The notes beneath the pieces were generated by a model, which saw only the letters and a program-made list of their open reading frames with translations, had not been told where the DNA came from and searched no databases. Both the position numbers and the translations under genes were made by a program. This document shows, piece by piece, positions 2 through 61,794 of a stretch of DNA of 64,000 nucleotides (position 1 is the first letter of the stretch; the number at the start of each line of letters is the position of its first letter). Origin of the DNA: Pyrenula massariospora (Eukaryota > Ascomycota > Eurotiomycetes > Pyrenulales > Pyrenulaceae); contig JAGFMI010000006.1 in assembly GCA_021030905.1 (NCBI GenBank), positions 1,984,001 to 2,048,000 on the forward strand, read 5' to 3'.

Positions 2-1765
2 CATCCATCAGAAGCACAACGGCTACAGGGTCTCGGTCCTAAACTATGCGAGCGATTGACGGAAAAGCTCAAGGCTTACTGTGTTGCTAATGATCTTACT
101 CCGCCACCAGAACATCAAATTCATCGGCCTTCGAAAAGGAATAGCGATAATGGTGGTCTTAATGAAGGAGGAGTTGAGCCTCAAGCTCAACCTGCAAAAA
201 AAGCTCGCAAAACGAAACCTTACGTTCCACCTCTCCGTTCCGGCGCTTACGCTCTCATTCTCGCGCTGGCAACATTAGATGAAAATGCATCACAAGGAAT
301 GAGCAAAGCTGAAACGATTCAACTGGCTGAGCCACACTGCGACACGTCGTTTACTGCGCCGAGTGACCCAACCAAGCATTATACTGCTTGGAACGCCATA
401 AAGACATTGCTCAACAAAGACTTGGTATACGAGCACGGTCGGCCGTTGCGAAGATACATGTTGACGGAGGAAGGCCGGGAATGCGCTATACGATTGCATA
501 AAAGCTCGAATGGTCGGATGGATGCATTAATGAGCCAAAATAAAAAGCAGAATTCAAGACATACAAGCCCTCAGAGACCGGACATGACCTTGGACAATGC
601 TTTGTCCATCAAAGATCAATTGCCGAACATTGTTTCGGACCAGGTGGCAGAAAGGCGGCAAAGAAAGCAAGACGAGAGACAATTCCTACAACTCATATCC
701 AGCAGTCCGCCACCATCCCCGGAAAGGCCCATCCCAGGCCAGCAACTAAACCAGCAATCTACTGTCCCTACAACAGCCCAACCTCCAATCTCCGAGGACT
801 TGTCTACCTCTCTTCCCAAATTCACTCCCATCATTCTCCCCGCCGGCTCGTTCACCGTCCATCTTCTCCTCGACACCCGCGAAATCCGCACCACCACCGA
901 TCGTGACTACATCTCGACCGAACTATCCAAGCGCGGCATCACAGCTACAACACGCGCCCTCCCCCTCGGCGACGCGCTCTGGATCGCCCGCCCCAAAAAC
1001 CCCTACTCTCTCTCACCACACCTCCTCGACGACGAAAACCAGGACCCCAGCAAAATCGAAATCGTCCTCGACCACGTCCTCGAACGCAAACGCCTCGACG
1101 ACCTCATCTCCAGCATCAAAGACGGCCGCTTCCACGAGCAGAAGTTCCGCCTCCGCAAATCCGCCATCCCCCACGTCACCTATCTCGTCGAAAACTTCTC
1201 CCTGTCCGCCGACAAATCCTCTCGCTACGCCGACGCCGTCGCCTCCGCCATCGCCGGCACCCAGGTCGTGAACGGGTACTTTGTCAAGCGCACCGCCAAG
1301 CTCGACGACAGCATCCGCTACCTCGCCCGCCTGACCCGCCTCCTGCAGGCTAAGTATGAAAAACACCCGCTCCACGTCATCCCCCCGGAAGCGCTGAGCC
1401 CGCGCACCTACACCGCGCTGCAGGCCCGGCTCCGCGCCGCGCAACCACAGACCCCACCGCACTACATCACTTTCTCGGCCTTTGGCGCGCTGGTGGGCAA
1501 GGCCAGCGCGCTGACGCTAAGAGATGTCTACCTGAAGATGCTGATGTGCACGCGCGGAGTGACGGGGGAGCGGGCGCTGGAGATTGCCAAGGTGTGGGGG
1601 ACGCCGAGGGGGTTGGTGGAGGGGTTTGAGGAACGAAAGGGGAAAGGGAAAGGGGGAGGGAGAGGGGGGGAGGAGATGGTGCATGAGGTGTTGGGGAGGG
1701 GGCCGGTGCCGAGGAGGAGGGTGGGGAGGGGGCTTGGGAGGAAGATTGGGGAGGTTTGGGGGTGA
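2..1765 (+). CDS. mus81: MUS81, structure-specific endonuclease catalytic subunit (5' end beyond the window)
   Basis: MUS81 pairs with EME1/MMS4 in the nucleus and cuts branched DNA such as 3' flaps, replication forks and Holliday intermediates. The frame is open to the left edge, and its first residues (SEAQRLQGLGPKLCERL) are the end of the N-terminal helix-hairpin-helix, so only a short N-terminus is missing; 587 residues are visible. A winged-helix-like region follows at about nt 220-500, then a low-complexity linker. The XPF-type nuclease domain lies at about nt 840-1350 with the ERKRLDD metal motif at nt 1082-1102 and an upstream LLLDTREIR strand. The tandem helix-hairpin-helix region is at nt 1440-1620. 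The last 45 residues are an odd Gly/Arg/Lys-rich tail encoded by a very G-rich stretch. No intron is visible. Identification is secure from the nuclease motif and domain order. Confidence 0.96.
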   Translation, partial: HPSEAQRLQGLGPKLCERLTEKLKAYCVANDLTPPPEHQIHRPSKRNSDNGGLNEGGVEPQAQPAKKARKTKPYVPPLRSGAYALILALATLDENASQGMSKAETIQLAEPHCDTSFTAPSDPTKHYTAWNAIKTLLNKDLVYEHGRPLRRYMLTEEGRECAIRLHKSSNGRMDALMSQNKKQNSRHTSPQRPDMTLDNALSIKDQLPNIVSDQVAERRQRKQDERQFLQLISSSPPPSPERPIPGQQLNQQSTVPTTAQPPISEDLSTSLPKFTPIILPAGSFTVHLLLDTREIRTTTDRDYISTELSKRGITATTRALPLGDALWIARPKNPYSLSPHLLDDENQDPSKIEIVLDHVLERKRLDDLISSIKDGRFHEQKFRLRKSAIPHVTYLVENFSLSADKSSRYADAVASAIAGTQVVNGYFVKRTAKLDDSIRYLARLTRLLQAKYEKHPLHVIPPEALSPRTYTALQARLRAAQPQTPPHYITFSAFGALVGKASALTLRDVYLKMLMCTRGVTGERALEIAKVWGTPRGLVEGFEERKGKGKGGGRGGEEMVHEVLGRGPVPRRRVGRGLGRKIGEVWG

Positions 1766-1822
1766 AGTGGAGAGTGGAGTGGGGATGGGGAGGGGGGATT
1801 GGGAGCTTTGGGTGGGAGATGT
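1596..1822 (+). other. G-run-rich tract at the 3' end of MUS81
   Basis: The + strand is almost free of C and carries many runs of three to seven G separated by short A/T spacers. The tract covers the last 57 codons, the stop codon and the first 57 bases downstream. Such spacing could form G-quadruplexes in the RNA or the non-template strand. That is inference; the G runs are directly visible. Confidence 0.7.
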
Positions 1823-2938
1823 TTAGTTGGGAGGGGTTTGGGTGTGGCGGGTAAATGGATAGATGGCTTGTATATATAGTATTTGAACATATGTTGAAAT
1901 TGGTGGACTTTCAAAGTCTGCCACTGCGTCGGAGTCATTGATACGCTTACGAACTGGGTAGGCCTGCACTATTACATACAACGTTCTGGTTCTGGTTCTC
2001 CAAGTCAAGAGACTTCCTAGCGTAATTGAATATCGTTAGACTCGATCACCGTAAAGAAATGATCTGGCTAGATAAAAAATAAAAATCCAATTCGATATGG
2101 TCCTATCTGGTTGCGTTCCGCCCCCTGACCGCCTCTTCCCATCTCACCTTGCTCCTTTCTCTTCTCGAAGAATGGGAGAAAGGTCGAGCACGGCATGACG
2201 TGCTATCCAGTATATGCATACAAACACTGCACCCCTCAGCACTAACGTCCCCATTGAAAAGCCTTCCGTCATTCCGACGGTTAAAGCCTAGTTGCCCTGA
2301 TACCTTGTCTTGTATCCCGAATCTTTCAACGGTCCTTCATCGTACCTAGTTCCAATCCCCATGTCAATCCCAATCTAGTCCCTTCTTCCCTTACTGCGAT
2401 GGGATTTTTGTTACAAATTGCAGCCCCGCATATCATAATTCCATTTCGAAGCCGCGAAGCGCCAACACAACGCAACGCAGCGCAGCGCACCCTGTGAGCC
2501 GGTCAAGGAAACAGCGAAAAGACCTACCCCCCGAGTCGTGCCAGCCTTGTGCTCTTAGATCGCGGTGTACTTTAGACGGGGCGAGGTAGCTCGTCCGTCC
2601 AGTGGGAGCGTCGGGATAGCTGTTGAGCATGTTTTGGTTTGGGGGGTGCGATTTGGAGCGTGGCTTTTCCTCGTGACGTCGAGTCGTTCTTCTAGTGGTT
2701 ACTCTTTTGAGGTCGAGGTCGTAGTCGAGGTTAAGGTCCGTGAGTGTTATAGATCACTGTAGCGGGAAGATCTCGATCTTGTTTCTCTACGTGGTCCAAC
2801 GGCACGAGTCCCTTTGGCGGAATATCTCGGCGGCGGCGCCTGCCGTTGTTATTGCAGAGGCGCAACGATAGCCGGTAGAAAAGTATCGAAAAAGTTGAAA
2901 GCTGTCTTCGCTCTCTAACTTCATCTGGCTCATTTCGC
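1766..2938. other. Intergenic region between convergent genes
   Basis: After the G-rich tract the sequence becomes ordinary. Short open frames on both strands lack family signals. The right part (2731-2938) could be the last exon of the neighbouring minus-strand gene if a second acceptor is used. I see no RNA gene or repeat. Confidence 0.5.
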
Positions 2939-5990: not shown

Positions 5991-6191
5991 CGGCGAGCTA
6001 TCTGTGCCGTCTCTACTCTGCAACTTTCGACACTCAATACGCTCTACCATGAGATTTACTAGTACAACGACATAGAAATGTGTATGTCTTCCTCCTCGCC
6101 TCGCTTTCCAGACGCTACACAACCATAGATTTCACGTTTTAACATTATGACAACTTGTGCCAATGCATTCCGGGAGTAGAACATCTTCATA

Positions 6192-6211: not shown

Positions 6212-6493
6212 AGCCCTACTTATTTCAAATTCAAGGTATATCTCGATATCGAATCCTACAGAGCGAAAATGTTTCCAACAGCGACCAAATCAAAAAATTT
6301 TTCCTCAGCCAGTTGGTGTCCTTGTTTGATGCCGTTGATATAGATATGTAGACATGTGGTGGGTATCAAAACCATCTATCTCATGCAAAACTCTATACCG
6401 CAGGACTGATAGACATAGACACACACACAATCTCCATTTATCATCCATCCATTTCCCCACAACCCCACCTTGCCAAAGCCGCAGAAACTTTCC

Positions 6494-8127
6494 TTAGCTC
6501 AAATCCACCATTCCCCTTCCGCCAGCCGCCTCCCCCTGAGGATGAGGATGGGGATACTCCCCCCAGTCCGGCACCAAACCCCCCACACCGCCACCGGCAC
6601 CCCCCTCCCGCTGGCCCCCTCGACAAACCTCCTCCAACAACCTCCCATCCGCCCACCCCCTCCCCATCTCCCTGGCCCCCTCAATCCGCCTGAGATCATC
6701 CTCCACCTCCTCCGGCATCAGCGCGCTCGGCGGCAGCACCACCTGCCCTCCTTTCGAATTGAAGTTCGCCAGCACAAGTGTCGGGAGGCTGTTGCGTGCC
6801 AGGGCGGCTGCAGCCGCGGCGGAGGACGAGGAGGATTTGTCGGCGGCGGCGAGATCGGAGAGGAGGGAGAGGCCGGCGAGGGCTCCGCCGGCGTTGACGC
6901 GCGCGGAGCGGGTGAGGTGGTGGTAGGTGTTTGTGTTTGTTTGGCTGCTGGCTGTGCGGTCCATGTCCGGGGCGATAAGGTCGGGGACGGTGGAGTTTAA
7001 GAGGTTGTCGTCCGAATCGGAGGTAGATGGGGAGGAGTTTTCGGTGGAGGATGTGGGGCTTTCTGGGTCTTGTGAGCGCGAACGGTGATTGTGGTGGTGG
7101 TGTTTGCCGTTCTTGCGGGTGTGGGCGAAATATTGTGTCGCAGCGAGGTGGGCTTGGTAGGAGTGCATGTTGAGCTCTTTGTCGCTAAAGAGGGAGTTGA
7201 TGCTGCTGCTTGGTGAGGTGTGATAGCCTGCTATTCTGGCACGGGCACGATCTACCGGCGTGGAGATTCCATCGATTCCCGGGGAGCCAGGGTCATCATC
7301 TAAGGCCCTTCGTTTCCGCTTGTTGAAGTTCTCTGACAAGAGTGAGTTCCCCAGCTCTTCTGCGTCTCCGCGGTTTCGCGTAAGGCGTGTTTTACGGTTG
7401 GTATGCGCACCACCGGGGCTTGAGGGGTTGGTGATTGTAAATTGGCTTGCGTGATGTAGTAATGAATTTGTGTCGGCGCTGTCTAGTTGCTCTTTCTCTT
7501 TCATTAAGGCATTGATTTTGGACTGTATGCCATTGGTCATTCGATCACGAATAGTCTTGGAGAGGAGCTTGCACTCCTCGTCAGCATGCTTAAGCTTGTA
7601 ATCGCATTCGCGTTTCAGATTGACGAGAGTTCGATCGTAATTATCCTAGCAGACGGAAAGTATTAGCTTTTATAAGCTCCACAACTCGGATTTGTGGGAT
7701 TGTAAGGTGGACTCACATTCACCCGCACAAGCTCAATCTCTCGGTCTTCTTTCGCATCGTTGGTTTGTCGAGCAAAATCATTATACCATTTCCCCGCACT
7801 CAGCGTCACTTCTCCCTGATACGGTGTCCCAGCGGCAGAAGCCTCTAAAAGATTTCTTATTTCATCTGGAGAGTCATCGAGCGGTTCTGACTGGTAGACA
7901 TCGGCGCGCTGAATGAGGGCTATGTCGTGCTGTAGGGCAACCAGCTGAGTCCGAAAGTGTACGTCTCGATTCTGATTGAATTCATTGACTAGCTCTTGAT
8001 AGTGCGCATTGTGAGCCTGTCGTTTCTTGTCTTTCTTTGAAATTGGCTGTGGTTGGGGCGAGGGAGACCGACGGGCGTGGTACGGTGCTCCGTGAGTGGG
8101 AGACGTTGGGGAGGGAGAGTAAGGCAT
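6494..8127 (-). CDS. sds3: Sds3-like subunit of the Rpd3L histone deacetylase complex
   Basis: Sds3-family proteins hold the Rpd3/Sin3 deacetylase together in the nucleus and so support transcriptional repression. Two exons (8127-7717 and 7645-6494) are joined by a 71-nt intron with GTGAGT...CTGCTAG and give 520 residues in one frame. The family signature is a helical, charged segment from about residue 20 to 190. It includes HYQELVNEFNQNRD, a central FARQTNDAKEDREIELVRVN stretch and then NYDRTLVNLKRECDYKLKHA. The rest is disordered: a basic KRKRRALDDD patch, Ser/Asp tracts, a His run (KHHHHNHR), a poly-Ala stretch, and a glycine-rich tail encoded by a G-rich coding strand. Family assignment comes from the coiled-coil region only, so a related Dep1/Sds3-type protein is possible. 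Confidence 0.75.
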
Positions 8128-10908: not shown

Positions 10909-12045
10909 CCTCTGGTGGCATCGTTGGCTTCTATCTAGCTCTTGAGCCTCGCGTTTGGGTTTAAAAGTCCTAACATTAGTACACAACCACGGAAAGTATT
11001 CTCTTTACTACATGTTCTCTGTCTAGTTATTGCTGCATCAACGCTAGACGAGGTATTGGAAATCACATTTATTAGTCGAGAGCCAGTGCCCGCAACCAGA
11101 TGCGCCACGACTTTTGGTATTCGGCCACGACAATAATTCTCAAACTATATCTCGCGTCCATTCGCAAACCCTGCGGTCATCGTAGAAGACTCCTCCGGAT
11201 CCCTTGATGACTCCACAGAGCTTTGCCATAGTACGAGCGTTCAAAAGTTTCCCTTTGCTAATTCGCATCTCACCGTAATCATCCCGCTCCTTCACCCACT
11301 GATCCCTATTTCAAACGGTTGTGAGGCTTTGTTTAAAGGAGCGTGTTTAGAGGAATACATCATTGCTTAAGCTCACTAACGGAGTGTCTAGCAAATGCTT
11401 AGAATAGCCCTAGTTACGACTGCATGGAGACCTCATTTTAATCGAACTTTAGCCTCACAGACAGCTAACAATGATCCATCAACACAAGAGATTCGCTTCC
11501 TCTGGCACTCTTTTTTGCCTAGCGAGAATTATTTAAGTTGTATTGCTCCAACGTCTTCAAAAAGGACATCTAATCGAGGCTGGGCATCAGAAGTTGTGGC
11601 GCATCTTATTGCTGTTATTGACGCTCGCCTAGCATATATTGGATGCGCAACAATTTCTAATATCGAGCCTCGAATCAAGCTATTGACTCACTTCCTTGCT
11701 CTTATCCAGCCTGTCGATAGTCTTTTCAGAGGTTGCCGAGGATTGTCCGCAGCTTTGCGGAGGGCTCCATTTTGTGGGGGGCCGATGACGTCGAGTTCGT
11801 CTCGAGGGTCTTTGGGATTTCTAAGATCGATATTGCGCCATCGCATCACTAATACGTTTCGATTCGTTGTATATAAGTTGAGTCCCTTGGTGTATCTTAA
11901 ACGTCGTTCTGTAGCATAGCTTGTCCATCTCTCAGATAGCACATTCTTCGCTGCTTAAGATCAATCTATTATCCTTCACAAAACCGTACAGACAGCCATT
12001 CCTCATATCATCAGTATAACAAAACCACAAATTGATCCCACCGCC
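10909..12045. other. Divergent intergenic region upstream of the AsaB-like gene
   Basis: A 174-codon plus-strand frame (11395-11919) has no recognisable motif and overlaps the TATA element described next, so I do not call it a gene. The last 100 bases before 12046 are CA-rich and look like 5' leader. Confidence 0.5.
11870..11877 (+). promoter_or_regulatory. TATA-box candidate of the AsaB-like gene
   Basis: TATATAAG lies 169 bases before the start codon at 12046, followed by a CA-rich, G-poor leader. Position and sequence fit a core promoter. There is no transcript evidence. Confidence 0.45.
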
Positions 12046-12930
12046 ATGTCGACTACAACCACCACCACCACCGCCGCCGCCTTCCCCCACACATCTCTCA
12101 AGCCCACCGACCCAAGCTACACCCCCCGTGGTCCCGTCACCTCAAAGCTCTCCTTTTATGTCCCTCCGTCCGACGGCTCTGCTCCATATAATTTTGTTGA
12201 AAAGCAGCCTGCCGGCACCCCTCAGAACAACTTCGGTGCCATCGATCTTGCCGTACAACTGAATGACATCCGTGGCCACGAGTCATCCTACACTCTCGAC
12301 CGTGACGCCTTCCAAGCAATACAGAATATCCCGTCAGAAGAGAAAGACTTCACAGACGATGACCACATTAAAAAGACATACTACCCTGAAGTTGAGAAGC
12401 TCTTGCTCGAAAAAGTTCCTGGTGCCCACAGAGTCGTCCTCTTTGATCACACAATCCGCCGCTCTACGCCCAACGCCCACCGCGCGCCTGTCACCCGTGT
12501 GCATGTTGACCAAACACCCAAGTCCACCGTTGCGCGCGTGAATCTACACGTCCCAGATGACGCCGAACAGTTGCTCAAGGGCCGCTATCGTATAATCAAC
12601 GTGTGGCGACCGCTCAACGGGACGGTGCAAACTTCTCCCCTTGGCTTTGCTTCAGCGTCTTCAGTCGATGACGCAGATTTAGTCGGCGTGGAGCATCGGT
12701 ATCCAAATCGAACTGGGGAGACAGCTGCAGTGAAATTCAACGAAGGACAGAAGTGGTATTATTGGAGTGGGATGGAGAATGATGAGAGATTGCTACTGAA
12801 GTGCTACGATTCGAAAGACGATCAGGAAATTGGGAAGAGAGTGCCACATACGGCATTCACAGATCCAAGGAGCCCGGAAGGCGCAAAAGGTAGGGAGAGT
12901 ATTGAGGTAAGGGCACTGGTCTTTGGCTAG
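12046..12930 (+). CDS. AsaB / GA4-desaturase-like non-heme iron oxygenase family protein
   Basis: This intronless 294-residue protein matches the fungal family annotated as hydroxylase/desaturase AsaB, CmcJ-like or GA4-desaturase-like. These are putative 2-oxoglutarate/iron-dependent oxygenases often found in secondary-metabolite loci. Visible signature segments are SKLSFYVPPSDGSAPYNF near the N-terminus, VVLFDHTIRRS, then RVHVDQTP with the likely metal His and Asp. Further on are IINVWRPLNGTVQTSPLGF and a C-terminal KWYYWSGMENDERLLLKCYD followed by RVPHTAFTDPRSP. Its length matches the family. A poly-Thr/Ala stretch (codons 3-12) is simple-sequence coding. The substrate cannot be deduced. 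Neighbouring methyltransferases make a tailoring role plausible, but no backbone synthase is in view. Confidence 0.88.
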   Translation: MSTTTTTTTAAAFPHTSLKPTDPSYTPRGPVTSKLSFYVPPSDGSAPYNFVEKQPAGTPQNNFGAIDLAVQLNDIRGHESSYTLDRDAFQAIQNIPSEEKDFTDDDHIKKTYYPEVEKLLLEKVPGAHRVVLFDHTIRRSTPNAHRAPVTRVHVDQTPKSTVARVNLHVPDDAEQLLKGRYRIINVWRPLNGTVQTSPLGFASASSVDDADLVGVEHRYPNRTGETAAVKFNEGQKWYYWSGMENDERLLLKCYDSKDDQEIGKRVPHTAFTDPRSPEGAKGRESIEVRALVFG

Positions 12931-13169
12931 CTAGGCTGCGATGAGGATAATTGGAGCAGGAAATTGGCGAGTAGATGGAGCCGGAGGTTTGAAGTTGCTG
13001 CTAGCGGAGGTTGTTGCTCTGTATCGTCTTGCATTGGGAGGTGCATTTGATATGGGTTAGCGAATCAAGTTCTCGCCCTTCAATTGGGATTCATTATCGT
13101 CGCTGTCTGCACCATCCTCCAACTGCCATACAGACGTTGTCCTAGATCTTTCCGTATCCTAAGTAGTAC

Positions 13170-16280: not shown

Positions 16281-17937
16281 ATGGCCTCTTCAAATCGACT
16301 AACCGAGTTGTCATCCATCATCGCCGAAAAGACTGCGCTACTTACCAAACAGCTGGAAGCGCACGGGTCCCCGCTCCCCTCATTCCAATGGGACTCGCCA
16401 GCGGATCTGCCGCAAGACACCAAGACACAGCAAATACGCAGAGAGCTCATCTCGGCGACTGAAGAACTCAAAGACCTCGCCGTTGGAGCTTCAGACGGAT
16501 TGCGGTACCTGACATGGAACGTAAGTTGCCCCCTTTAGACATGCGCCGCAAAGCCAGCTTATGACCCCTTGGCGGTCAATTAACCCAAGCTCCCCTCCCC
16601 GCGCCTCCGCGGCTGAAAGCTGACCACCCTCTCTCAACTCGTGTAGCACAACGACTCCCTCTCCCTGCACGCTATTAGCCACTTCAACATCGCACAATGC
16701 GTGCCCATCCCTGCTGCCGCCAACGGAGATGGCAGCGGCGGTAGCCCCTCAATGGCAACATACGCCTCCATCTCCGCGCAGACAGGCCTCCCGGAGCGCA
16801 CCCTCCGCCGCATCCTCCGCCATGCCATGTGCAACCATATCTTCACCGAGCCCGTCCCCGACCACGTTGCGCACACGCGCATGTCGCGGCTGCTCGCCGA
16901 GGACTTGTCCGCACGCGACTGGGTGAGCATGTTCACGGAAGATCTGTGGAAGGTGTCGTGCCGAACGGTCGAGGCGTTGGGAACATGGCCTCTAAGCGAG
17001 GAGCCAGGGGAGACCGGTGCGAAGGTTGCTTTGGGGCAAGGGTGGTTTGAGTGGTTGAAGGCAGATGAGGGAAGGGCAAGGAGGTTTGGCGGAGCTATGA
17101 GGAGTTTGGCGGAGGGGAAAGGGTGGGAAGCGAAGTGGGTGGTCGAGGGGTGGAGATGGGGGAGTTTGGGGGGAGGGAGAATTGTGGATGTAAGCATTTA
17201 CCCCCTGGATTACCCATCTGAATTCGGTTCTTGGTTCTCGTTTTCTCTCCTATGTATTGTGTGCGGGTAGCAGGGCTGAGACGTATATTGACTGACCGAT
17301 CCCACAGGTCGCCGGTGCGACAGGCAACATCAGCATAGCCATCGCCCGCTCCTTTCCGTCTCTCAGCTTCGTCGTCCAGGATCTTCCTCATATGGTCCCT
17401 CATGCAGAATCTAATATTCCCGCGGACCTCAAGTCCCGCATCACCGTCGAAACTTACGACTTTTTCACGCCTCAGCCCGTCCATGGAGCAGACGTTTACT
17501 TCTACCGGAATAACTTCCACAACTGGAGCGATACGTATGCACTAAAAATGCTAGATGCGTTGAAACCAGCTCTCAAAAAGGAAGCCAGGCTACTAATCAT
17601 TGATACCGTGCTCCCACAACAGGGTACGGTAAATGCCTTTGATGAGAAGATTGTGAGGACGCTGGATCTGGTGATGCTGCAAAGTATTAATGCACGCGAG
17701 AGAGAACTTGAAGATTGGACGGCTTTGCTAGAAAGGTCAGGCGGTTGGCAGTTTGTGGACGCCAAACAGCCAGAAGGATCGAAGTTGTGGATTATGGAAT
17801 GGTTATGGGAAGGTGACGGTGTGACGAGGGAGGCAACTGCTGTCGGTCACGACGGCCCGGGCATGAGACAAGGTGAGAAAAACGGCGTGGTCGAGATCGA
17901 TTCACTAAAGCGAAAGAGGTCCCCGTCTGTGACTTGA
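16281..17937 (+). CDS. Fungal O-methyltransferase (COMT-like) with divergent SAM motif
   Basis: SAM-dependent O-methyltransferase of the kind that decorates fungal aromatic metabolites. Exons 16281-16520, 16647-17189 and 17308-17937 are joined by introns of 126 and 118 nt (GTAAGT and GTAAGC donors) and give 470 residues. The N-terminal 90 residues form the helical dimerisation part (SSIIAEKTALLTKQLEAHG). A winged-helix region follows (YASISAQTGLPERTLRRILR). Motif I reads VDVAGATGNISIAIA, with the intron falling between its VD and VAG. Family members usually have DVGGGxG there. The catalytic region FYRNNFHNWSD keeps the usual His before W-S/D-D. The C-terminal 50 residues are a polar extension ending KRKRSPSV. 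The region around 16930-17190 is strongly G-rich. It is probably active, but the altered glycine motif deserves a check. Confidence 0.9.
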
Positions 17938-18479: not shown

Positions 18480-19983
18480 ATGTCGACTCTAGAAGACCTC
18501 GACGATATGGAGCGAGACGAGAAGAAGGATCAAGGCTCCGGAGACGGTGACAAGGACCCCAATAAGAAGCCCGGCGCCGGCGGCGACCAGGAGATGAAGG
18601 ACGCAGACCCAGAGAAGAAAGAAGAAAAGGACGAAGACATTATCGACCTCGAGATCCTCCACTCCAGCACAAGAGACATTATCAATCGGCGGCGATTATT
18701 AGAAAACGACATGAAGGTCATGAAGAGCGAGTTCCAGCGACTTACGCATGAGCAGAACACAATGAAGGAGAAGATTAAGGACAATTTGGATAAGATCGAG
18801 AATAATAGGTTCGTCAAACTAGAATATGGAAGTGGTGGCACTATTGCTGACGAAGTGTAGACAATTACCGTACTTGGTCGGAAACGTTGTCGAATTATTA
18901 GACCTCGATGTCGAGAAAGAGGCAGCTGAAGAAGGAGCAAATATTGATTTGGATGCTACAAGAGTGGGCAAGTCGGCTGTCATCAAGACTTCGACAAGGC
19001 AAACTATCTTCCTCCCGTTGATCGGCCTGGTTGACCACGAGACCCTTAAACCAGGCGACCTCATCGGCGTCAACAAGGATTCATATCTTGTCCTCGATAC
19101 ATTACCCGCCGAATACGACTCGAGAGTGAAGGCTATGGAAGTGGACGAGAAGCCCACAGAGCAATATACGGATGTTGGCGGTCTTGATAAGCAAATAGAA
19201 GAGCTTGTTGAAGCAATCGTCTGGCCCATGAAAGAAGCTGAGCGCTTTAAGAAGATCGGCATTAAAGCACCTAAAGGTATGTTCACCTCCCCCGCGCAAA
19301 TATTAATCTGTCTAACCTCCCTCCCAGGGGCTCTGATGTACGGCCCACCAGGCACAGGCAAAACCCTCCTCGCCCGTGCTTGCGCCGCCCAAACCAACGC
19401 CACCTTCCTCAAGCTCGCCGGCCCCCAGCTCGTCCAAATGTTCATCGGCGACGGCGCCAAACTCGTCCGCGACTGCTTCGCGCTCGCCAAAGAAAAAGCC
19501 CCCTCGATCATCTTCATCGACGAACTCGACGCGGTGGGCACCAAGCGCTTCGACAGCGAGAAATCCGGCGACCGCGAGGTCCAGCGCACGATGCTGGAGC
19601 TGCTCAACCAGCTCGACGGCTTCGCCTCGGACGACCGCGTTAAGGTCCTCGCGGCCACCAACCGCGTCGACGTGCTCGACCCGGCGCTCCTCCGCTCGGG
19701 GCGGCTCGACCGCAAGATCGAGTTCCCCCTGCCCAACGAGGAGTCCCGCGCGCAGATCCTGCGCATCCACAGCCGCAAGATGACCGTCGACGACGGGGTC
19801 AACTGGGCGGAGCTGGCGCGCAGCACGGACGAGTTTGGCGGCGCGCAGTTGAAGGCGGTGTGTGTGGAGGCCGGGATGATTGCGCTGCGGAAGGGCATGG
19901 CCAAGGTGGGGCACGAGCATTATGTCGATGCGATTGCAGAGGTGCAGGCGAAGAAGAAGGAGACGGTTAATTTCTATGCTTAG
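18480..19983 (+). CDS. rpt5: RPT5, 26S proteasome regulatory ATPase (subunit 6A)
   Basis: RPT5 is one of six AAA ATPases in the ring that unfolds ubiquitinated proteins and feeds them to the 20S core. Exons 18480-18808, 18861-19276 and 19328-19983 are joined by introns of 52 and 51 nt and give 466 residues. That is slightly longer than yeast Rpt5 because of an acidic N-terminus ([11 protein letters not shown]...[11 protein letters not shown]). A coiled coil ([19 protein letters not shown]) and the OB-fold region follow. Walker A GPPGTGKT, Walker [12 protein letters not shown], and the second region [18 protein letters not shown] are all intact. The protein ends in NFYA, the HbYX-like tail that docks into the 20S ring. 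Exon 3 shifts from C-rich to G-rich coding usage. Confidence 0.98.
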
Positions 19984-20390
19984 ATCGGTGCTTTGTCAGG
20001 ACAGGATGAGGGTTGTTAGCAGGCTTGGCGCTGCGCAGAATAGAGACATGAAAGCAGCATTTTGGCAGGTTCATTCGGGAATTCAAAGGGCCATCTAACG
20101 GTCATTAGCGTGCTCTATTCTTCATACTCAGGACTCTTCCCTGGGAACATAAGGGGTTGCGGTCGTGAATAAGTGGAGATTATCTCAAGAAAATGATCTT
20201 GAAGGTGCAAAGCACTATCAAATAGCACTACCCGAACAAATGTAGCTATGCCCGCTCTTTTTGTGAAGAGTAACACGATAGGTTTACTCGACTCACGCAG
20301 GAGCCCGAACGAGAAGCGCAGGTAATACGAGCTGCCATTAGAATTTTTTCTAGACAGAAAATCTCAGCGCTACGCATGCTAAAGACACAC
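19984..20390. other. Convergent 3' flanks
   Basis: Lies between the convergent RPT5 and elongase genes. No feature recognised. Confidence 0.5.
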
Positions 20391-46517: not shown

Positions 46518-48899
46518 ATGTTTGCATACACTACTTCTTCGCTGAAAGATTTAAAAAAGGAGGATCGGATGCTATTGACAGAGGTTCTCAGGAAACGAGA
46601 AAGGGAAGACTACCAGTCATTTTCAAGCCGTGTATCGACCCAGATCTCAAGATTACCTTCTAAGTTGAAGCGGCCTAAATATCTACCATCATCTTTTCTC
46701 ACAGGATATCCACCAATGCCGCTCTGCAAATTCCATAAAAATCTGAACGCGAGGCTGATACACTCCATATTCGAACTCGTGGCTCTTGAGGTTGGATTGC
46801 GCTGCAACAGCCTCGTTGCTTCTGGAAACAAAGTTGAAACAAGGCCACGTGTTCAAGTTCTGGAAATTCGATGGATGCATAGCATGTGGCTCCAACCCGA
46901 AGCTTTTAGGAACACATTCTTCCAGGAACCTGATTCAGCAAAGTGGTCATATCAAGAAAACTGTTGCGAAGCTTGCATGCTTACTCGTATTGGAAGTTGC
47001 CGCGACACGCTTGGTAGGCTTAGAATGCTTCTAATTTCGCGAACAAGAGATGGGTCTTCGACTCACAAACACCCGGGCATCCCTTCCTTACTCCCCTTCG
47101 TAGACGAATGGATCCTTTGGTTGGGCGCCAGCCTTGCGCGGCAACTTATAGGTGAGAGCGGTCGCCTGGGGGCCTATCTGAAGACGGTCCGGAAGAGCAT
47201 TTGGGCTGAGAGGCGCAAAAAGCGGCTCAATAAGGATGCACATATGGCGAGTACCTCCATATTGAGCACGAATCCAGACCCTACGTCCGAGTATAATCGT
47301 AATCAGATCAGACACGCTCAGAGCTATTCACCACCTCCTATTGCTGAAAGCTCGAAGGAACTGCCTTCTGAGGATAACTCGACACATGACAGTGATTCAG
47401 AAGAGGACAGCGATCCCGAGAACAGCATAATCAACGACTATATGGGAAATCGTCCCTATGGCAATCACTACCAGGCGTTAGTCTCTACCCAACATCTACC
47501 GCCTGAAGCAGCAAAAATTAACCAAGATCCGCAGGTCACTTCAGAATGGCAAAAAATCGGCGAAAAGTTTGGGAGCATTTCTTTGCATAATCACCAAAAG
47601 TACGCCGAATACGATGATGCTGGCGAACTGACTCCCAAGCCTCGGGTCCCTCCGAAAGACGATGAAGAGGCTGATAGTGACGGAGAAGGAGAATACGTTC
47701 CTGTGCGCCGAGCTTGGACGAATTCCGAACCATCGCAAACAGAACGGCCGAATCTCCCCCACGCAAACACAACACCAGACCCTACGACAACACCCTCACC
47801 CACGGACGACTCTCGAACAGCCGTCGAAAGATCCCGAGTAGGTTCTTGGGCATCGGTCACCTCTGACCATGAGGACGACTACCTCATCCACGAGGATGAC
47901 ACCGCCTCGGACCGCTCTGCCTACAGAGCTGCACACAACATCTGGGAACAGATGCGCGAGGAAACAATGTACAAGCGCCAAAGCAGCTCGAGCTTTGGAC
48001 TTCAATCAAACATCTCGATTCCCTACCCTGAGCCGTTGAACATCCAAAAGTCCACCCCAGACGACGATGCCGCCTTCGAGAAAGAAAAGACAGCAGCAGC
48101 AGGAGGTTCTCACCTCAAACGCCTACCCTCCGCCCGCAAAATGCCCTACGAAATCCCCCACTTCAACGAAACCGTCTTCCTCTCCTCCCCGCCACCAACC
48201 GCAAGAGCAACAATGCAGCTCTCCCACCAGAACCTCGCCGACTTCAACGACAGATTTGGCTTTGAACCGCATGGAGCAGAGGAGTCGGTCTCGGCCGAAG
48301 AACGCGCCGAGAGCTACCGGAGCAGCCTGCTACACTTCCCCTCGACCACGAGCTTCGCCCAGGTCAGTCCGAAGACGGTCCCGCCAAGGGAGCGAGCTCG
48401 GCGACAGAGATCGAAGAAGGAGCTCGACCGGCAGGCGTCGCGGAGGAAGCTGGAGGGGGAGCCCGAGAGGCGCGTAAGGGGCGGGTCGATGATGGTCAGT
48501 CCGAAGAGCTTCCCTCCTCCTCCGCCGGCGGCGGAGGTTCCGCAGATCTACATCCAGCGCCAGGATGCGGATACCAATACAGACACAACCGGAACAAGGA
48601 GTGGGAAGGGAAAGGAGTATGCGTTTCTGCACGCCCCTCCCCGTCCAGCACACAATGCTCCCTCCTCCTCCAGGACTCATACTACAAGGACGCGCAAGAA
48701 GCGCCCCGCCCCGATCCACGTCCCCCCTCACCCTCACAACCAGAATACTCAAAACAGCAACGGTAGTCCCCGGCGCTGTCTGACGACGTGCGAGGACGAA
48801 GACGAAGACGGCGAGACGACGCCGCGGCAGGCGGTGTATGGGGCTGGTGGTGACGACAAGGGGAATCGGGAGACGAGGTGGTCGCTTTTTTATGCCTGA
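46518..48899 (+). CDS. Fungus-specific protein of unknown function
   Basis: One exon, 793 residues. The N-terminal 250 residues look conserved and folded: KKEDRMLLTEVLRKRERED, PSSFLTGYPPMPLCKFH, LNARLIHSIFELVALEVGL, VQVLEIRWMHSMWL and CCEACMLTRIGSCRDTLGRL. I recall this arrangement from uncharacterised proteins of other filamentous ascomycetes, with no assigned function. The paired cysteines (CCEAC) and CKFH could bind a metal. The remaining 540 residues are disordered, with acidic tracts (DSDSEEDSDPEN, DEEADSDGEGEY) and basic, Pro-rich stretches towards the end. The coding strand alternates twice between C-rich and G-rich blocks after 48100, which explains the composition of the tail. No signal peptide or membrane helix. 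Confidence 0.85.
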   Translation: MFAYTTSSLKDLKKEDRMLLTEVLRKREREDYQSFSSRVSTQISRLPSKLKRPKYLPSSFLTGYPPMPLCKFHKNLNARLIHSIFELVALEVGLRCNSLVASGNKVETRPRVQVLEIRWMHSMWLQPEAFRNTFFQEPDSAKWSYQENCCEACMLTRIGSCRDTLGRLRMLLISRTRDGSSTHKHPGIPSLLPFVDEWILWLGASLARQLIGESGRLGAYLKTVRKSIWAERRKKRLNKDAHMASTSILSTNPDPTSEYNRNQIRHAQSYSPPPIAESSKELPSEDNSTHDSDSEEDSDPENSIINDYMGNRPYGNHYQALVSTQHLPPEAAKINQDPQVTSEWQKIGEKFGSISLHNHQKYAEYDDAGELTPKPRVPPKDDEEADSDGEGEYVPVRRAWTNSEPSQTERPNLPHANTTPDPTTTPSPTDDSRTAVERSRVGSWASVTSDHEDDYLIHEDDTASDRSAYRAAHNIWEQMREETMYKRQSSSSFGLQSNISIPYPEPLNIQKSTPDDDAAFEKEKTAAAGGSHLKRLPSARKMPYEIPHFNETVFLSSPPPTARATMQLSHQNLADFNDRFGFEPHGAEESVSAEERAESYRSSLLHFPSTTSFAQVSPKTVPPRERARRQRSKKELDRQASRRKLEGEPERRVRGGSMMVSPKSFPPPPPAAEVPQIYIQRQDADTNTDTTGTRSGKGKEYAFLHAPPRPAHNAPSSSRTHTTRTRKKRPAPIHVPPHPHNQNTQNSNGSPRRCLTTCEDEDEDGETTPRQAVYGAGGDDKGNRETRWSLFYA

Positions 48900-49682
48900 G
48901 TGCTTGGGCACGGACGGGGAATGGTGAGTAAACGAAACCGCGCGGCATAGCCTTTGAGTATGTGGAAGGAGTTCGAGTACTAGTTAGATGGGAAAATGGG
49001 GCGGATTTTTGTGGTTGGGGCTTGGTGTATAGTTTTAACCACTGTCAAATTTATAATATATTCTATTGAAGACTTTGGAGTTGTGTGCTTGATCGATGGT
49101 AAGCTTGGTCTGGTCAATGTCAGTGCTCGCGGATGCCCTCTAAGTGCAGCAGTGTCGCTATTTCTCGCTCCTGGCTTTGGGCTTGGGCATGTGATGGCTT
49201 GAAAGGTGCGCAGGGGGGGAAATAGGATTTTTGGAAACAGTTTGGTAGGGAACAGCATTGTATTGTACAGCGTACTACATTCAGGATGGGGTTCTTTTGA
49301 GAAGAGTCACTTTCAAATACCTGGTCCAGTCAGCTTCATTATACCTTAGAGGGAACGGTTCTCTTGGATTTGTGATGTAGGTAGGAAAATTGTTTCGCAA
49401 AGTACCTCCCAACTACTAGTGCGCAGAAAGTCACTTGGGTAACTACGAAACACTTATCACAAGAGTGCAAAGCGGATTGCCTCAGTATTATTATGCTCGT
49501 TCGCTTGAGTACATGCCAAAAACACGATGTCCATCCCACCCGACCGACCCGAAACCTTTGCAGGCTAGAATATGTGATGTAATAAGGTAGAGCGAATGCT
49601 ACACAAAGTCTCCGAATTGAACGCACACAACAGCGTCATTACCCATCACCCATCACCACATCATGCAATACCCCGCCCCCTC
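48900..49682. other. Convergent 3' flanks
   Basis: Between two convergent genes. AT-rich parts near 49020-49080. No gene or RNA feature supported. Confidence 0.45.
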
Positions 49683-52603: not shown

Positions 52604-54514
52604 TCACGGCAGTTTCATGAAGACGTCCAACAATCTCTTATAGCGTGGCGTCCCGAGCCCTGTCACCGGATCCCATCCCTCCACCGCCTGGAATCCCTGC
52701 GTCTCACAACCTGGGTTATTGCCTTCTACCACATCCCTGAACGCCTCTGGATGCTGGTACAGCACTGGATTCAGGAACCCAACTGCCTTCTTCCCCACCT
52801 TCGCCCGCTCTTCATTGATCAATGTGATCAACGCCCCAAAAGCCGGTGCACTGGCGCTGGTCCCACTGATAGGGAGAAACTCACCATTGATGGCGGTGGC
52901 GTAGTCCTGCCCATTGAAGGAGACATCAGGATAGCCACGGGAGGTCTGTGAGGTGTTGTAAACGGAGGAATTATACGGCGGGAGATGGTTCGCGAAGTAC
53001 TCCGCCAGCGCGGCCTTCTGATAGTCGGGTGCGCCGAAATAATTCGAGAACCCTCCAGCGGTGGGAAACGCGGTCGTCGCGATCTCGAGATCGTGCACGC
53101 TGTTCCCCGGCTTGATGGCCGTCCCGCCGACCGAAGTCACCCACGGACAGACGCTCGGGTACATCGGGTTGAAGCGGCCGGCTCCTCGCACCGGCGCGCC
53201 AGTGGGCCCAATGCATGTGCCCCTGTTACCAGCGACGCCGCTGTCGCCGGCGGAGAACAGCACGCTGATACCCATGAGCCCGAGTTTCATGTACTCGTCG
53301 CATTGACGGGCTTCGTAGAAGAGCGAGCGGTCGTTCTCGCTGCTTCCGTACGATACGGAGATGACGGATGTCACGGGGACAGTGCCGCAGTCAGGCGTGT
53401 TGTTGTAGTAGCCAGTTAGGTTCTGTCCTGGGTAAGTGTAATCTGGAATGTCGGGGTAGTGGGCGTCAAAATCTTTGTCATCGCCGCCCTTGTAGGTGCA
53501 GTAAGAGGCATCAAGTGCATCGAGGAAGTTGTTGTTCGTTGCTGCGTCACCAGCATTCGCGTCACCGACTTGGTAGAGGGTTACTTGTTGTGGGTGGACC
53601 AGGGAGGTGGCATATTCGAGATCTAAGTCGCTCTCTGAAGGATCGGTCTGATGGGATGTAGGGTCGTAGAAGCCGCCGTCGATTGCTTCAAATTTTGGCG
53701 GAGTGCCAACTGGAACGTTGGTAGCGTATGTGGAGTAAAAGAAGTCAAGGTCAGACTGCTTGTAATTTTGTACGGGGGAGAACTCGACGATTCCGTAAGA
53801 GCTGATATTGAGCGAACCTTCTGGCATACCGTAAAGGGCCCGGATACAGGCAGGAGTGATTTGCTGGCTGCAGTTTGATAGAGATCTGAAGTCTGGGTTT
53901 GTGATTGGAGGGCCAACCACCGGGAGGATACGAGTCCACCAAGAAGGTCTATCATGTACGTCACGCTTCAATGACAGATCATGGTTGATGGTCGGGGTAA
54001 CGAAGTCTATGTGCTCTTGCAGATGCTCTGGAAGAGAATACTCGTCACAAGACAAGCTCGTCCCCCCATCTTCATGCTCATACACATGGTACGTTGTCTG
54101 CAAGAGCGTCTCAAGCTGACCCAGACTCGTTTCAAAAGAGACAGAGTTGCGGCCTTTGGAGAGCTGTAGCGGCCCTTCAATATGGATCCTGAGCCAGTCA
54201 CGAACACTCTCAAGGCTTTGACGGCTGGGAGAAAAGGCTTTAGCAACTTCTGCTTTAGTCCAATGCCTGCCATAATTTTTTGAAGAGGGATCGCTAATTT
54301 CAAGCAACGCAGAACGACCCCAGTCGAGGTCGTTCTGTTTCAAGGCGACTGTTACTGGCACCGCAATTGAAGGCGATGGCCTATTGAGGCTCCTCCGGAG
54401 AACATGCCCGCCGTTTCGTCTCTCGTGCACCCGGTAGTTAATCGCAGGAAGGGCATCAATGCAAAGGACCAAAGATGAAACGAACAAGCACACTAGAAAT
54501 TGAAAGTACAACAT
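52604..54514 (-). CDS. Secreted sedolisin (S53) serine-carboxyl protease
   Basis: Acid protease or tripeptidyl-peptidase made as a secreted proenzyme. One exon, 636 residues. I start at MLYFQFLVCLFVSSLVLCID, a good signal peptide; the longer frame begins with TTG. The activation domain follows (VTVALKQNDLDWGRSALLEI, PSSKNYGRHWTKAEVAKAF, LLQTTYHVYEHEDGG). The catalytic set is complete: the Glu/Asp pair in ESDLDLEYATS, the oxyanion Asp in FSAGDSGVAG, and the Ser in SGTSASAPAFG. The calcium site appears as FRDVVEGNNPGC and GWDPVTGLGTPR near the end. Several N-x-S/T sites are present. Similar to fungal SedB-SedD-type enzymes; exo versus endo activity is not decidable here. Confidence 0.95.
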   Translation of the reverse strand: MLYFQFLVCLFVSSLVLCIDALPAINYRVHERRNGGHVLRRSLNRPSPSIAVPVTVALKQNDLDWGRSALLEISDPSSKNYGRHWTKAEVAKAFSPSRQSLESVRDWLRIHIEGPLQLSKGRNSVSFETSLGQLETLLQTTYHVYEHEDGGTSLSCDEYSLPEHLQEHIDFVTPTINHDLSLKRDVHDRPSWWTRILPVVGPPITNPDFRSLSNCSQQITPACIRALYGMPEGSLNISSYGIVEFSPVQNYKQSDLDFFYSTYATNVPVGTPPKFEAIDGGFYDPTSHQTDPSESDLDLEYATSLVHPQQVTLYQVGDANAGDAATNNNFLDALDASYCTYKGGDDKDFDAHYPDIPDYTYPGQNLTGYYNNTPDCGTVPVTSVISVSYGSSENDRSLFYEARQCDEYMKLGLMGISVLFSAGDSGVAGNRGTCIGPTGAPVRGAGRFNPMYPSVCPWVTSVGGTAIKPGNSVHDLEIATTAFPTAGGFSNYFGAPDYQKAALAEYFANHLPPYNSSVYNTSQTSRGYPDVSFNGQDYATAINGEFLPISGTSASAPAFGALITLINEERAKVGKKAVGFLNPVLYQHPEAFRDVVEGNNPGCETQGFQAVEGWDPVTGLGTPRYKRLLDVFMKLP

Positions 54515-59174: not shown

Positions 59175-59849
59175 ATGTTGAAGCGCGCTGCACACCAGAT
59201 CCCCTTCCTCGACCTGACCAAAAACCCTCTCGACGACGGCCGCACAATCCTTCAATCGCCCCTCAACCCCCGCCTCGCAGCCATCCACCCCTTCACCTAC
59301 ACCACAGCTCTCAACTCTCCCCCATCAAGCGACGACTCCGACTCCGACTCCGACTCCGAACCAACCACACCCCCAATCAGCCCCCTCCTCCCCACCCCTC
59401 CCCACTACTCCTCTCCATCATCCACCCCCTCCACCCCACCCTCCCCCGTCAGCCCCCTCCTCCCCCCGCCATCCCCCACCTTCTCAACCCTCGCAACCAA
59501 CTCCCCGCACCACCTCGTCCCCCTCCCCCTAATCGCCACCTTCTTCCCCGCCGCCAAGGCCGGGCAGCTCTTCTCCGCGCTGCCGCCCACCTTCCACACA
59601 ACGAACCGCGGCATGTTCCTGGCGCTGCGGGAGGTGCCGGGCGTGGCGTGCGACTTGAGGGATCAGATGCTCGTCGAGGCGGTGGTTAAGCGGGGTGGGG
59701 TGGTGGCGGAGGAGGAGGAGAAGAGTGGGGAGGAGGGGGGGTTTGATGTGAGGGATTTGGAGAGTTGGTTGGGGGAGGGTGGGGGGAGGGATGAGGGGTT
59801 TTGGGAGGAGGTTGGGGCGTTGAAGGAGGAGGGAAGGTGGAGGGAGTAG
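59175..59849 (+). CDS. Low-complexity uncharacterised protein
   Basis: One exon, 224 residues, family not recognised. It starts MLKRAAHQIPFLDLTKNPLD, which looks ordered. A Ser/Asp repeat follows (SSDDSDSDSDSE, encoded by four GACTCC copies at 59334-59357), then a Pro/Ser-rich stretch. A possibly folded centre is LIATFFPAAKAGQLFSALPP, TFHTTNRGMFLALREVPGVA and CDLRDQMLVEAVVKRGG. The tail is Glu/Gly-rich. The coding strand is C-rich to about 59560 and then strongly G-rich from 59600. The folded-looking parts support a real gene; the rest is shaped by composition. Confidence 0.6.
   Translation: MLKRAAHQIPFLDLTKNPLDDGRTILQSPLNPRLAAIHPFTYTTALNSPPSSDDSDSDSDSEPTTPPISPLLPTPPHYSSPSSTPSTPPSPVSPLLPPPSPTFSTLATNSPHHLVPLPLIATFFPAAKAGQLFSALPPTFHTTNRGMFLALREVPGVACDLRDQMLVEAVVKRGGVVAEEEEKSGEEGGFDVRDLESWLGEGGGRDEGFWEEVGALKEEGRWRE
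59334..59357 (+). repeat. (GACTCC)4 coding microsatellite
   Basis: Four perfect copies of a hexanucleotide encode the Asp-Ser repeat of the low-complexity protein. Confidence 0.9.
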
Positions 59850-61081
59850 GATGGGAGGGGTGGGGAGTTTGTAAATGATCTGTATAGGGTAATATGAGTA
59901 TTGCGAGAAAGATTTTTGACAGGAGGAAGGTTTTGTTTATATTTCATTCGTCTTTTGGCAGCAGCGTCGCATAATTGTTTTTGTGCTGCCATTCTTAAAA
60001 GCTAGCCGCAGAGCCTTTGGATAGCTCGGGATATGTTTGGTGGATCATTGTGTCTAACGAAAGTCTCATGACCTGAAAAATAGGGGTTGATTTGACTCTA
60101 GGATTAGGTCTTCAATAGCGTGAGAAATAAAGTGCCCTTTAGAATTGTTGAGCTGATCAACCGGCCTAACTTAATTGCGCTCTCTTAGTCGTGCTTTAGA
60201 AGTAAGTTACCGAATGTTCCAATGTAGGTTGTCTCATCCGTGCCTTGATCATTTTACAGGTAGATAAACGGCAGCTGCGCCATCCAAGGCGATAAATCCT
60301 CGTAAATAGAACATCTTTCGAGTAAATTCTGGGTCCAGAACGACGCATGTGTTGATAGTCCCCACATTAGTCGTCCACAAATGCATTGTCCAAGGGTTTG
60401 GTCAACTGCAGCGAAGGTGCTCCGGGGTTTCTATGGAGCCAACAAGGATTTCCCACGATGGCGTTTACCGCAGTCAGGCTGAATAAAAATTTGACTATTG
60501 CCCAAACCGAAGTGATAACTCGATATAGAAGCAGAGATCGGAAAGAAAAGCAGTAGTACTATTATACTAGGAGATAGAAAAGATTCTCCTACCTAAGGAC
60601 GCTACAGGACCGCGAAACAGAAATTGAGACGAGTATTTTTACGACTAAAACGTTGCGGGGCGACAACTATCAAACGCAGAAGGAAATGCCTCTAACAAAA
60701 ATTGAAGTGTGATCTTTCCTCGTTTGTATCTCATCAAAACGGCGATGGCCAAGAGGAAACTCCTTGGTGGTACAAGACTGACGACTTTGATCGAAAGCTT
60801 CCCACAGCCCACCAATTTCTGGCTTGAAGGCCCTTTGGCCCTAAATGTTATCTAGAAGACTCCCTTATTCGTCAACGATGACCGGCAGTCTACAAAAATG
60901 CAACCCCTAACCGCCCAGCCTCGCCAGCCTAATCGCGCCCAAACCGAACCCCCTGGATGTCCCCCCATGACGTCGATCCCAACACCAAATCCATCCCACA
61001 CCACAATGACGTTCCGCACCGCCAACCGCGTCCCAGCATCCTCGTTCACCTACCCTATGTATCCCCCGCCGTCTTCACAAA
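59850..61081. other. Intergenic, no supported gene
   Basis: 1.2 kb. The part 60890-61080 is C-rich and open in two frames, so an upstream coding extension of the next gene is possible. The rest is AT-rich without features. Confidence 0.45.
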
Positions 61082-61794
61082 ATGGTGATCGGCCTCCTCA
61101 CCCTCGCCGCGATCCCGACCACCATCGGCGTGGCCGAAGGCGTCTCGCAGCAGCGGCAGAAGAACAGCGAAGATGACGACAAGGCGCGCATGGCCAAGTT
61201 CCACATCGACGTCGCGTGCGAGGCCAAGAGTCGGCGAGCCAGGGACGTGCAGGGGAAGAGGCTTGTGTTGAGGGGTGGGAAGGTAGGTGTCTCGCTGGGT
61301 GTAAGGGGGGGGAAATGTGCTGATGGATGATGATTGCGTAGGTCTATATTGACGAACATCTCCCGAACCTGCGGAGCAAACAGGCGTACACTGCAAAGGC
61401 GTTTTATATTGATTACCCTGACGAGGAGAGGGAGCAGACGCGAGGCCTGGTGACAAAGGTCGCTGACGACCCGCCGATGCTCAATTGGATCTACGTGGAT
61501 AAGAACACGCTCGAGCTGAAGTATGGGAATAGGACAGAGAGCCGAGAACACCATGTTGGGCCGTGGGACTGGACAGGCGAGGAAGAGAAGGATGATGAGC
61601 ATGAAGGTGTTACAATGGAGGGATGGGAAGGGTTTGTGGCGGTGGAGGAGGATTCCAATGGTCCAGGCGGAGGGGAATGGGCGGTATATTTTGATAGGGG
61701 GGATGATGGGCTGAAAGGGTATGTGGATGGAAGGAGGAAGAAGATGCTAGAGATCCGGTTGATGAGAACAGTGTGCAAGGAGCAAGAAATATGA
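61082..61794 (+). CDS. Conserved fungal protein of unknown function
   Basis: Exons 61082-61282 and 61342-61794 are joined by a 59-nt intron (GTAGGT...TGCGTAG), phase 0, giving 217 residues. The start MVIGLLTLAAIPTTIGVAEG is a hydrophobic segment, followed by QQRQKNSEDDDKARMAKFHI, DVACEAKSRRARDVQGKRLV, then VYIDEHLPNLRS, KAFYIDYPDEERE, WIYVDKNTLELKYGNRTESR, HVGPWDWTGEEE and EGFVAVEEDSNG. This order is familiar from uncharacterised proteins of many filamentous ascomycetes. No enzymatic motif is visible. The N-terminal hydrophobic stretch could be a membrane anchor. Converges on ROK1. Confidence 0.8.

Follow-up and report, generated by a model that had tools for sequence, protein, structure and literature searches.

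The stretch analysed here, called the window throughout, comprises 64,000 nucleotides of the ascomycete Pyrenula massariospora (assembly GCA_021030905.1, contig JAGFMI010000006.1, positions 1,984,001 to 2,048,000 of the forward strand). Its subject is a reversal of strand composition that recurs in its genes, in which the DNA read 5' to 3' passes from C-rich to G-rich within a few hundred bases, hereafter a C-to-G switch. The window is gene-dense, with a GC content of about 50.5%, and ARAGORN found no transfer RNA gene in it. A Pfam scan of 39 of the 44 open reading frames (ORFs) found gave matches to MUS81, Sds3-like, O-methyltransferase, RPT5-like (AAA and proteasomal OB domains), ELO, NmrA, RPE65-like, BCNT, C2H2 zinc finger, PhoD, fatty acid hydroxylase, TCTP, pro-kumamolisin peptidase, GH16 and DEAD helicase proteins. 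Genes such as those for Sds3, RPT5, the pro-kumamolisin peptidase and GH16, together with the compactness of the genes, suggest a filamentous ascomycete. The positions given below are those of the window, and the published reports cited by accession are drawn on through the available parts of their text.

Results

Skew blocks and steep switches

The initial annotation of the window had named pairs of C-rich and G-rich blocks in at least seven genes, and GC skew measured block by block bore this out, the sign being as claimed in all 16 blocks and |z| at least 3.2 in 15 of them, with values reaching -0.74 on the C side and +0.77 on the G side. In MUS81 (+ strand), skew is -0.47 at 820-1250 and +0.77 at 1540-1830; its C-rich side as a whole spans 820-1475, where four bins from 842 to 1321 have C at the third position of 26-31 of 40 codons, and its G-rich side, by skew and change point, takes in the 3' end and the stop (1765) and reaches from 1476 to 1990 in the 3' flank. 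The Sds3-like gene (Pfam Sds3) lies on the - strand, and read on the + strand its blocks measure -0.54 at 6500-6730 and +0.47 at 6780-7090; in the sense direction, the C-rich side is therefore 6780-7200 (skew and fourfold sites) and the G-rich side, with the 3' end and the stop at 6494, is 6300-6790 (skew). The strongest switch in the window belongs to an unnamed + strand gene with its C-rich side at 59220-59612 and its G-rich side at 59613-59990 (stop 59849), the blocks 59220-59560 and 59600-59860 having skews of -0.74 and +0.72. CGACTC and CCCCCTCCTC-like C-rich low-complexity repeats occupy 59333-59481 inside this C block, and since they are simple repeats, slippage may add to its C richness. 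The weak block, 48300-48530, is near balance as a whole (84 G and 73 C, skew +0.07, z 0.9), with third codon positions that are partly G-rich (26 G vs 8 C in the bin at 48396).

A matched filter, 300 bp to a side, was used to look for steep switches, those with 0.20 or more per base on both sides; it returned four C-to-G switches and no G-to-C switch. Block shuffles of 60, 150 and 300 bp (200 of each) gave on average 0.005, 0.165 and 0.495 steep C-to-G switches, with maxima of 1, 2 and 4, so that the harshest of them, the 300-bp shuffle that keeps whole blocks, attained four at least once; the largest excess of one switch type over the other in the shuffles was 1, 2 and 3, and 4 was observed. 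At a weak threshold of 0.10 there were 24 C-to-G and 12 G-to-C switches with 200-bp sides, and equal numbers with 300-bp (13 and 13) and 400-bp sides (10 and 10). Because a skew that averages zero must return, the asymmetry is mainly one of steepness and not of the number of sign changes, and the expectation that C-to-G changes outnumber G-to-C changes held in the window for steep switches and for weak ones at 200 bp, with parity at the wider settings. The C-to-G switches are genuine in the window.

Position relative to gene ends

Most switches sit near the 3' ends of genes, on genes of either strand. At 22 of 23 gene ends (sign test, 6e-6), the final 200 bp of the sense strand have more G bias than the interval from -700 to -300. 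Gene ends here are ORF ends taken as real stops, and four of them (u3, u9, u31 and u44) belong to unnamed ORFs that are putative genes; u44 is the single failure, and the gene ending at 48899 hardly changes (0.01 to 0.03). The 16 gene ends outside the list of the initial annotation also moved, from a skew of -0.07 at -400 to -300 to +0.24 at -100 to 0. The mean G bias runs on past the stop to about +150 bp, that is, into the 3' untranslated region (UTR), with a mean skew of +0.256 from 0 to +100 (positive in 20 of 23) and of +0.068 from +100 to +200 (positive in 14 of 23). AT skew is positive and nearly flat within genes, at +0.02 to +0.15 across ten bins from -1000 to 0.

Placed relative to the stop, the best change point lay between -400 and -150 for 14 of these 23 ends, for a uniform expectation of 4.8, and its median was -266. 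A search blind to genes placed 7 of 12 C-to-G switches (p 8e-5) and none of 8 G-to-C switches at -400 to -100 of a stop, a zone that was picked after the change-point analysis and makes up 10.8% of the window; two other filter settings put 7 of 14 (p 3e-4) and 5 of 11 (p 4e-3) C-to-G switches there. Third-position skew binned from the stop went from about -0.3 to +0.25 in 25 pooled ORFs, two of which were judged to terminate at exon ends, and from between -0.16 and -0.30 to +0.14 in the 19 ORFs without previously named blocks. The initial annotation had reasoned that a C-to-G change, being its own reverse complement, is the same on whichever strand the gene lies, and had taken this as an argument against simple codon selection and for a local DNA-level process. 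Independence from genes is not supported, and the symmetry is no argument against a gene-linked cause, since genes on both strands switch in their own reading direction.

The same annotation had offered replication starts among the possible causes. Around an origin, with its G excess on the leading strand, the polarity is C to G, as in the window, but the skew persists for kilobases on each side. Averaged over seven centred switches, the skew here changes from -0.44 to +0.63 and has faded almost to zero some 500 bp away on the downstream side and some 800 bp away on the upstream side (where it is still about -0.2 at 500-700 bp), and 7 of 12 switches in 64 kb lie just before stop codons. Origins were rejected on the scale of the skew, and the chance that we leave to them is negligible.

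Silent sites, codons and proteins

Fourfold sites within 300 bp of the switch in seven genes have a C fraction of 0.63 on the C side and a G fraction of 0.58 on the G side, for backgrounds of 0.29 and 0.22, respectively. On the G side T stands at 0.11 vs 0.26 in the background, and A, T and C all fall while G gains. Among two-fold pyrimidine codons of the same genes, the fraction with a final C is 0.83 on the C side, 0.55 in the background and 0.39 on the G side; among two-fold purine codons, the fraction with a final G is 0.59 on the C side and 0.86 on the G side, with 0.52 in the background. NNR codons, which end in a purine, make up 0.31 of the two-fold codons on the C side, 0.39 in the background and 0.61 on the G side, which means that the proteins change too. 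When synonymous codons were shuffled within each of 21 genes with the protein preserved (500 means), the mean third-position change was 0.196 and the largest of the shuffled means 0.314, as compared with 0.549 observed, and 12 of the 21 genes exceeded the shuffle singly. Over roughly the last 130 codons, mean GC content at third positions (GC3) falls from 0.645 to 0.579, C-ending codons falling and G-ending codons rising.

Two proteins illustrate how far the coding sequence follows. RPT5 (+ strand) aligns to its last residue with solved Rpt5 chains, yet its fourfold sites hold C at 0.78 and then G at 0.54; the DNA shifts where the protein cannot. Its C-rich side is 19300-19700, strong at synonymous sites in a conserved protein, and its G-rich side 19701-20180 (skew and fourfold sites), through the stop at 19983 into the 3' flank. 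At 19279-19329 the unspliced frame carries 17 residues that are an insertion relative to the solved chains; the probable explanation is an in-frame intron of 51 bases, located immediately ahead of the P-loop. A comparison of RPT5 with prokaryote genomes returned four loci, all archaeal or bacterial by title, which were not used further. MUS81 can be aligned with solved MUS81 chains as far as residue 543 or 544 of its 587, and the C-terminal tail encoded at 1630-1765, past that residue, is rich in Gly, Glu and Arg and unaligned to those chains; here a protein end that is normally conserved may have been rewritten by composition. MUS81 searched against viral contigs gave no match.

Selection on the protein or the RNA, whether for Gly-, Glu- and Arg-rich C-terminal tails, for preferred codons or for a messenger RNA (mRNA) stem made of the C-rich and G-rich halves, could appeal to the moving NNR share, to the portion of the third-position change that survives codon shuffling (about 0.20 of 0.55) and to negative folding z-scores at five of seven sites. 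Those z-scores range from -1.7 to +1.4 against 30-base local shuffles (60 per site, seven sites), which leaves the stem unsupported, and the change exceeds what synonymous shuffles produce, RPT5 is switched with its protein conserved, and the G bias extends beyond the stop. Codon or amino-acid choice alone was ruled out by the fourfold sites together with the excess over the synonymous shuffles. The earlier judgement that more than simple codon selection is at work is upheld by the same two observations and by the continuation past the stop, and selection of this kind, largely refuted by the fourfold sites, is in our view very improbable.

Composition on the two sides of the switch

When the seven switches are aligned at their centres, GC is 0.68 there and declines to 0.47 over roughly 400 bp on the downstream side and 700 bp on the upstream side. 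Larger switches go with a higher GC3 in the last 233 codons (rho 0.68, p 7e-4, 21 genes); in MUS81 and RPT5 this GC3 is 0.85, vs 0.51 and 0.52 earlier in the genes, and the rise is not universal, as the GH16 gene has 0.49 against 0.52. GC at fourfold sites (GC4) is correlated between the two sides (rho 0.84), so the local GC rise affects silent sites on both. Moreover, in the 21 pooled genes the fourfold A/C/G/T fractions are 0.187/0.410/0.197/0.205 on the C side and 0.187/0.402/0.208/0.203 on the reverse-complemented G side (mirror test, p 0.95, from rounded fractions), and the 16 genes left after removal of five strong ones remain near-mirrored (0.212/0.326/0.203/0.258 vs 0.202/0.329/0.216/0.253). 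The mirror is only approximate in six switch genes, g48 being left out (p 0.018).

Such figures call to mind a DNA process with a centre, in which recombination or break repair would start about 270 bp before the stop and, by strand-asymmetric GC-biased conversion or gap-filling, would enrich in G, to either side, the strand that is made in the outward direction, giving a GC peak with C to the left and G to the right. The GC of 0.68 between flanks of 0.47 with opposite skew signs, the near-mirror in the 21 pooled genes and again without the five strong ones, and the correlated GC4 are what it would lead one to expect, and intragenic hotspots are known in fungi from the available part of a study of Zymoseptoria (PMC5844332). 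The same text, however, describes GC-biased conversion there as weak or absent. The flanks are unequal, both in GC (about 400 vs 700 bp) and in the upstream skew that persists at 500-700 bp, which lowers the odds of this explanation. The inexact mirror in the six switch genes, the two-fold purine codons of the C side, which keep their G (0.59, background 0.52) where a mirror would need a loss, and the uncorrelated skews of the two sides (rho 0.14) all count against it. No motif shared by the switches was found, the best 7-mers occurring at 4 of 11 sites, where the GC-matched null maximum averages 4.6. In addition, PMC9001825, in its available portion, reports that mismatch bias is set by flap length and that mismatch type has little influence, so a base-specific asymmetry has no support from that paper.

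Human meiotic breaks, to go by the part of PMC7615360 at hand, leave C>N and A>N mutations on the forward strand in the exposed part left of the break, a signature that would give G then C; human-type meiotic break mutagenesis was therefore dropped as having the wrong polarity, and with it the break repair of the human kind that the initial annotation might have meant. Its more general proposal, a local process with a centre, is partly borne out by the GC peak and the opposite signs of the flanks and falls short on their unequal widths. We regard such a centred process as unlikely, and as unlikely by a shade more the full claim that strand-asymmetric conversion or repair events about 270 bp before stops raise GC, add outward G and rewrite C-termini.

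The strands leading outward from the switches carry 35 GGG runs per kb, about ten times as many as the inward ones (3.6), the window having 10.7 per strand, and 50 of the 56 quadruplex-like motif starts in the window are on outward strands less than 400 bp from four of the eight centres examined. If R-loops or G-quadruplexes were the origin, the G side would be transcribed in sense and the C side in antisense, which would expose strands and fix a G-rich non-template strand, and the switch point would be a divergent start near the gene end. Besides the G-runs, this fits a non-template strand that is G-rich at the gene end, as termination-linked skew would have it, and the gain of T on C in two-fold pyrimidine codons of the G side. 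Against it, the G-runs are explained by the composition as such, the observed/expected ratio of CpG is unremarkable (0.90-1.34 in 200-bp cores, 0.93 in the window), and T does not rise at G-side fourfold sites. This explanation seems to us improbable.

Other loci and regional variation

An unnamed + strand gene absent from the initial annotation offers a weaker example, C-rich at 12000-12640 (skew and fourfold sites) and G-rich at 12641-13070 (skew), with its stop at 12930. The O-methyltransferase gene (+ strand) is an intragenic exception, being C-rich at 16580-16877 (skew and fourfold sites), about 1060 bp before its stop, and G-rich at 16878-17197 (skew). This G block stops at a probable intron, indicated by the change of frame, and within 17197-17324 the skew resets (G-to-C at 17320) before a second, weaker C-to-G switch near 17600, seen by skew in the 3' end at 17400-17937. 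The unnamed + strand gene ending at 48899 shows a double C-to-G change at its 3' end (48000-49300), which includes the weak block described above. A milder change, detected in third positions and by change point, marks the 3' end of the pro-kumamolisin peptidase gene on the - strand (52604-53900), and a last pair, defined by skew on the + strand, consists of a C-rich side at 60800-61180, upstream of the ORF ending at 61794, and a G-rich side at 61181-61900 over that ORF (61342-61794). The C-to-G switches at 2561 and 13746 are weaker and have no recognised gene end near them, the former lying between the convergent ends at 1765 and 2974.

Between the strong-switch stretches of 0-22 kb and 48-62 kb lies a weak one. 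At 24000-46000 the switches are weak, most 200-bp bins have a skew smaller than 0.3 in absolute value, and GC3 in the last 233 codons is mostly about 0.5 (0.61 in the RPE65-like gene, 0.57 in the PhoD gene and 0.42-0.53 in four others). This alternation suggests that the driver of the switch varies regionally along the window. Some 5 kb at 33800-38900 contain a single ORF (123 aa) above the codon-usage score, and skew there is mostly weak.

Discussion

The C-to-G switch of the window is very probably the gene-anchored GC-skew pattern already known from fungi, and it is unusually strong here in a subset of genes. We favour the reading that this known switch is the footprint of a strand-asymmetric substitution bias, and would put the probability of that account as a whole at roughly two in three; a mutation-and-repair origin, taken by itself, we hold only tentatively, at somewhat less than even odds. 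Such a bias, arising in mutation or repair and perhaps aided by GC-biased conversion, would act over the last few hundred bp of transcription units and favour G on whichever strand runs outward from the switch, leaving a fixed footprint. The switch would then be a by-product, and not the outcome of selection for codons, protein tails or RNA structure. Conversion in which G on the new strand wins over T would, by our own reasoning, give the right sign. The fall of T at G-side fourfold sites disfavours C-to-T deamination as the sole cause, although the shift from C to T in two-fold pyrimidine codons on that side is a partial sign to the contrary, and the joint fall of A, T and C with a gain of G disfavours C avoidance alone.

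Several observations weigh against a substitution bias tied to gene ends. Nine of the 21 genes fail the codon-shuffle test singly, and the third-position change is negative in u31, u44 and g48. Four of the 23 gene ends, the unnamed u3, u9, u31 and u44, are those of putative genes, and 5 of the 12 switches found without regard to genes are outside the zone from -400 to -100 of a listed stop, at 16876 (-1061), 61227 (-567), 2561, 13746 and 58394. The skews of the two sides are uncorrelated across the 21 genes (p 0.55), and their near-mirrored fourfold composition exceeds what a transcription-phase model needs. A further discrepancy, the direction of the association with GC, is taken up below with the published pattern.

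The genes with strong switches constrain the cause, as they combine a change point roughly fixed from the stop in many genes with a rise in GC and a near-mirrored fourfold composition, and these constraints make it easier to separate transcription phases, a shortage of cytidine triphosphate (CTP) and break repair with conversion. They also carry a warning for annotators, and for those who analyse proteins, because C-terminal tails rich in Gly, Glu and Arg can, in genomes of this kind, be a product of base composition. Were the centred-repair explanation true, coding DNA would bear a polarised and readable scar of break repair, and the published fungal 3' G bias would be an average of such scars and not an effect of transcription phase.

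Some systems resemble the switch in part. As in human meiotic-break mutation (PMC7615360), the asymmetry flips at a centre, but the available text of that report deals with flanks of about 2 kb and with mutation rates rather than fixed composition, and the human polarity would be G then C. In Leptosphaeria maculans, a filamentous fungus, the portion of PMC3411245 at hand also describes a gene-anchored, C-biased skew, but upstream of start codons, at the 5' end. The runaway GC evolution of gerbils (PMC7403616, PMC6573468) is likewise a GC-raising process able to change conserved proteins; in the accessible parts of those papers, however, 'GC skew' denotes an increase in GC and the regions span many genes, and it was dropped as a candidate for the same phenomenon on account of this other use of the term. 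AT-rich codons are preferred toward gene ends in 91 species, with fewer C-ending codons (PMC6892556, in the part available), which agrees with the fall of GC3 and of C-ending codons in the window, where G-ending codons rise.

The closest counterpart is the basic 3' G bias of fungal genes, known since 2011. The available text of McLean and Tirosh (2011, PMC3315797) describes opposite skews at the two ends of fungal genes: C is in excess over most of the gene, with a C bias at the promoter and start codon, and G is in excess toward the 3' end and within the UTR. It offers two causes, mutation pressure that differs by transcription phase or avoidance of C, without deciding between them, and notes a negative correlation of the pattern with GC content. 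Besides that paper, no direct match for a C-to-G switch combined with a GC peak at the ends of fungal genes was found among the matches listed, which were judged by titles and the starts of abstracts, nor was any prior description of the extreme amplitude, the GC3 coupling or the near-mirrored fourfold composition found among them. The window differs from the published pattern, as far as the text at hand goes, in block skews reaching -0.74 and +0.72 (values unranked against the species of that paper), in a change point that is sharp and coincides with a GC peak in some of the genes, and in some intragenic switches. It differs too in a change that rises with GC3 (rho 0.68), which is the discrepancy counted above against our reading. 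The likeness is nonetheless close to what the same text calls a 'fourth group', with a C-biased body, a G-biased 3' end and UTR, effects on fourfold sites and amino acids, and a positive AT skew within genes, and the strong, GC-coupled form that some genes of the window display appears to be an unusual variant of it.

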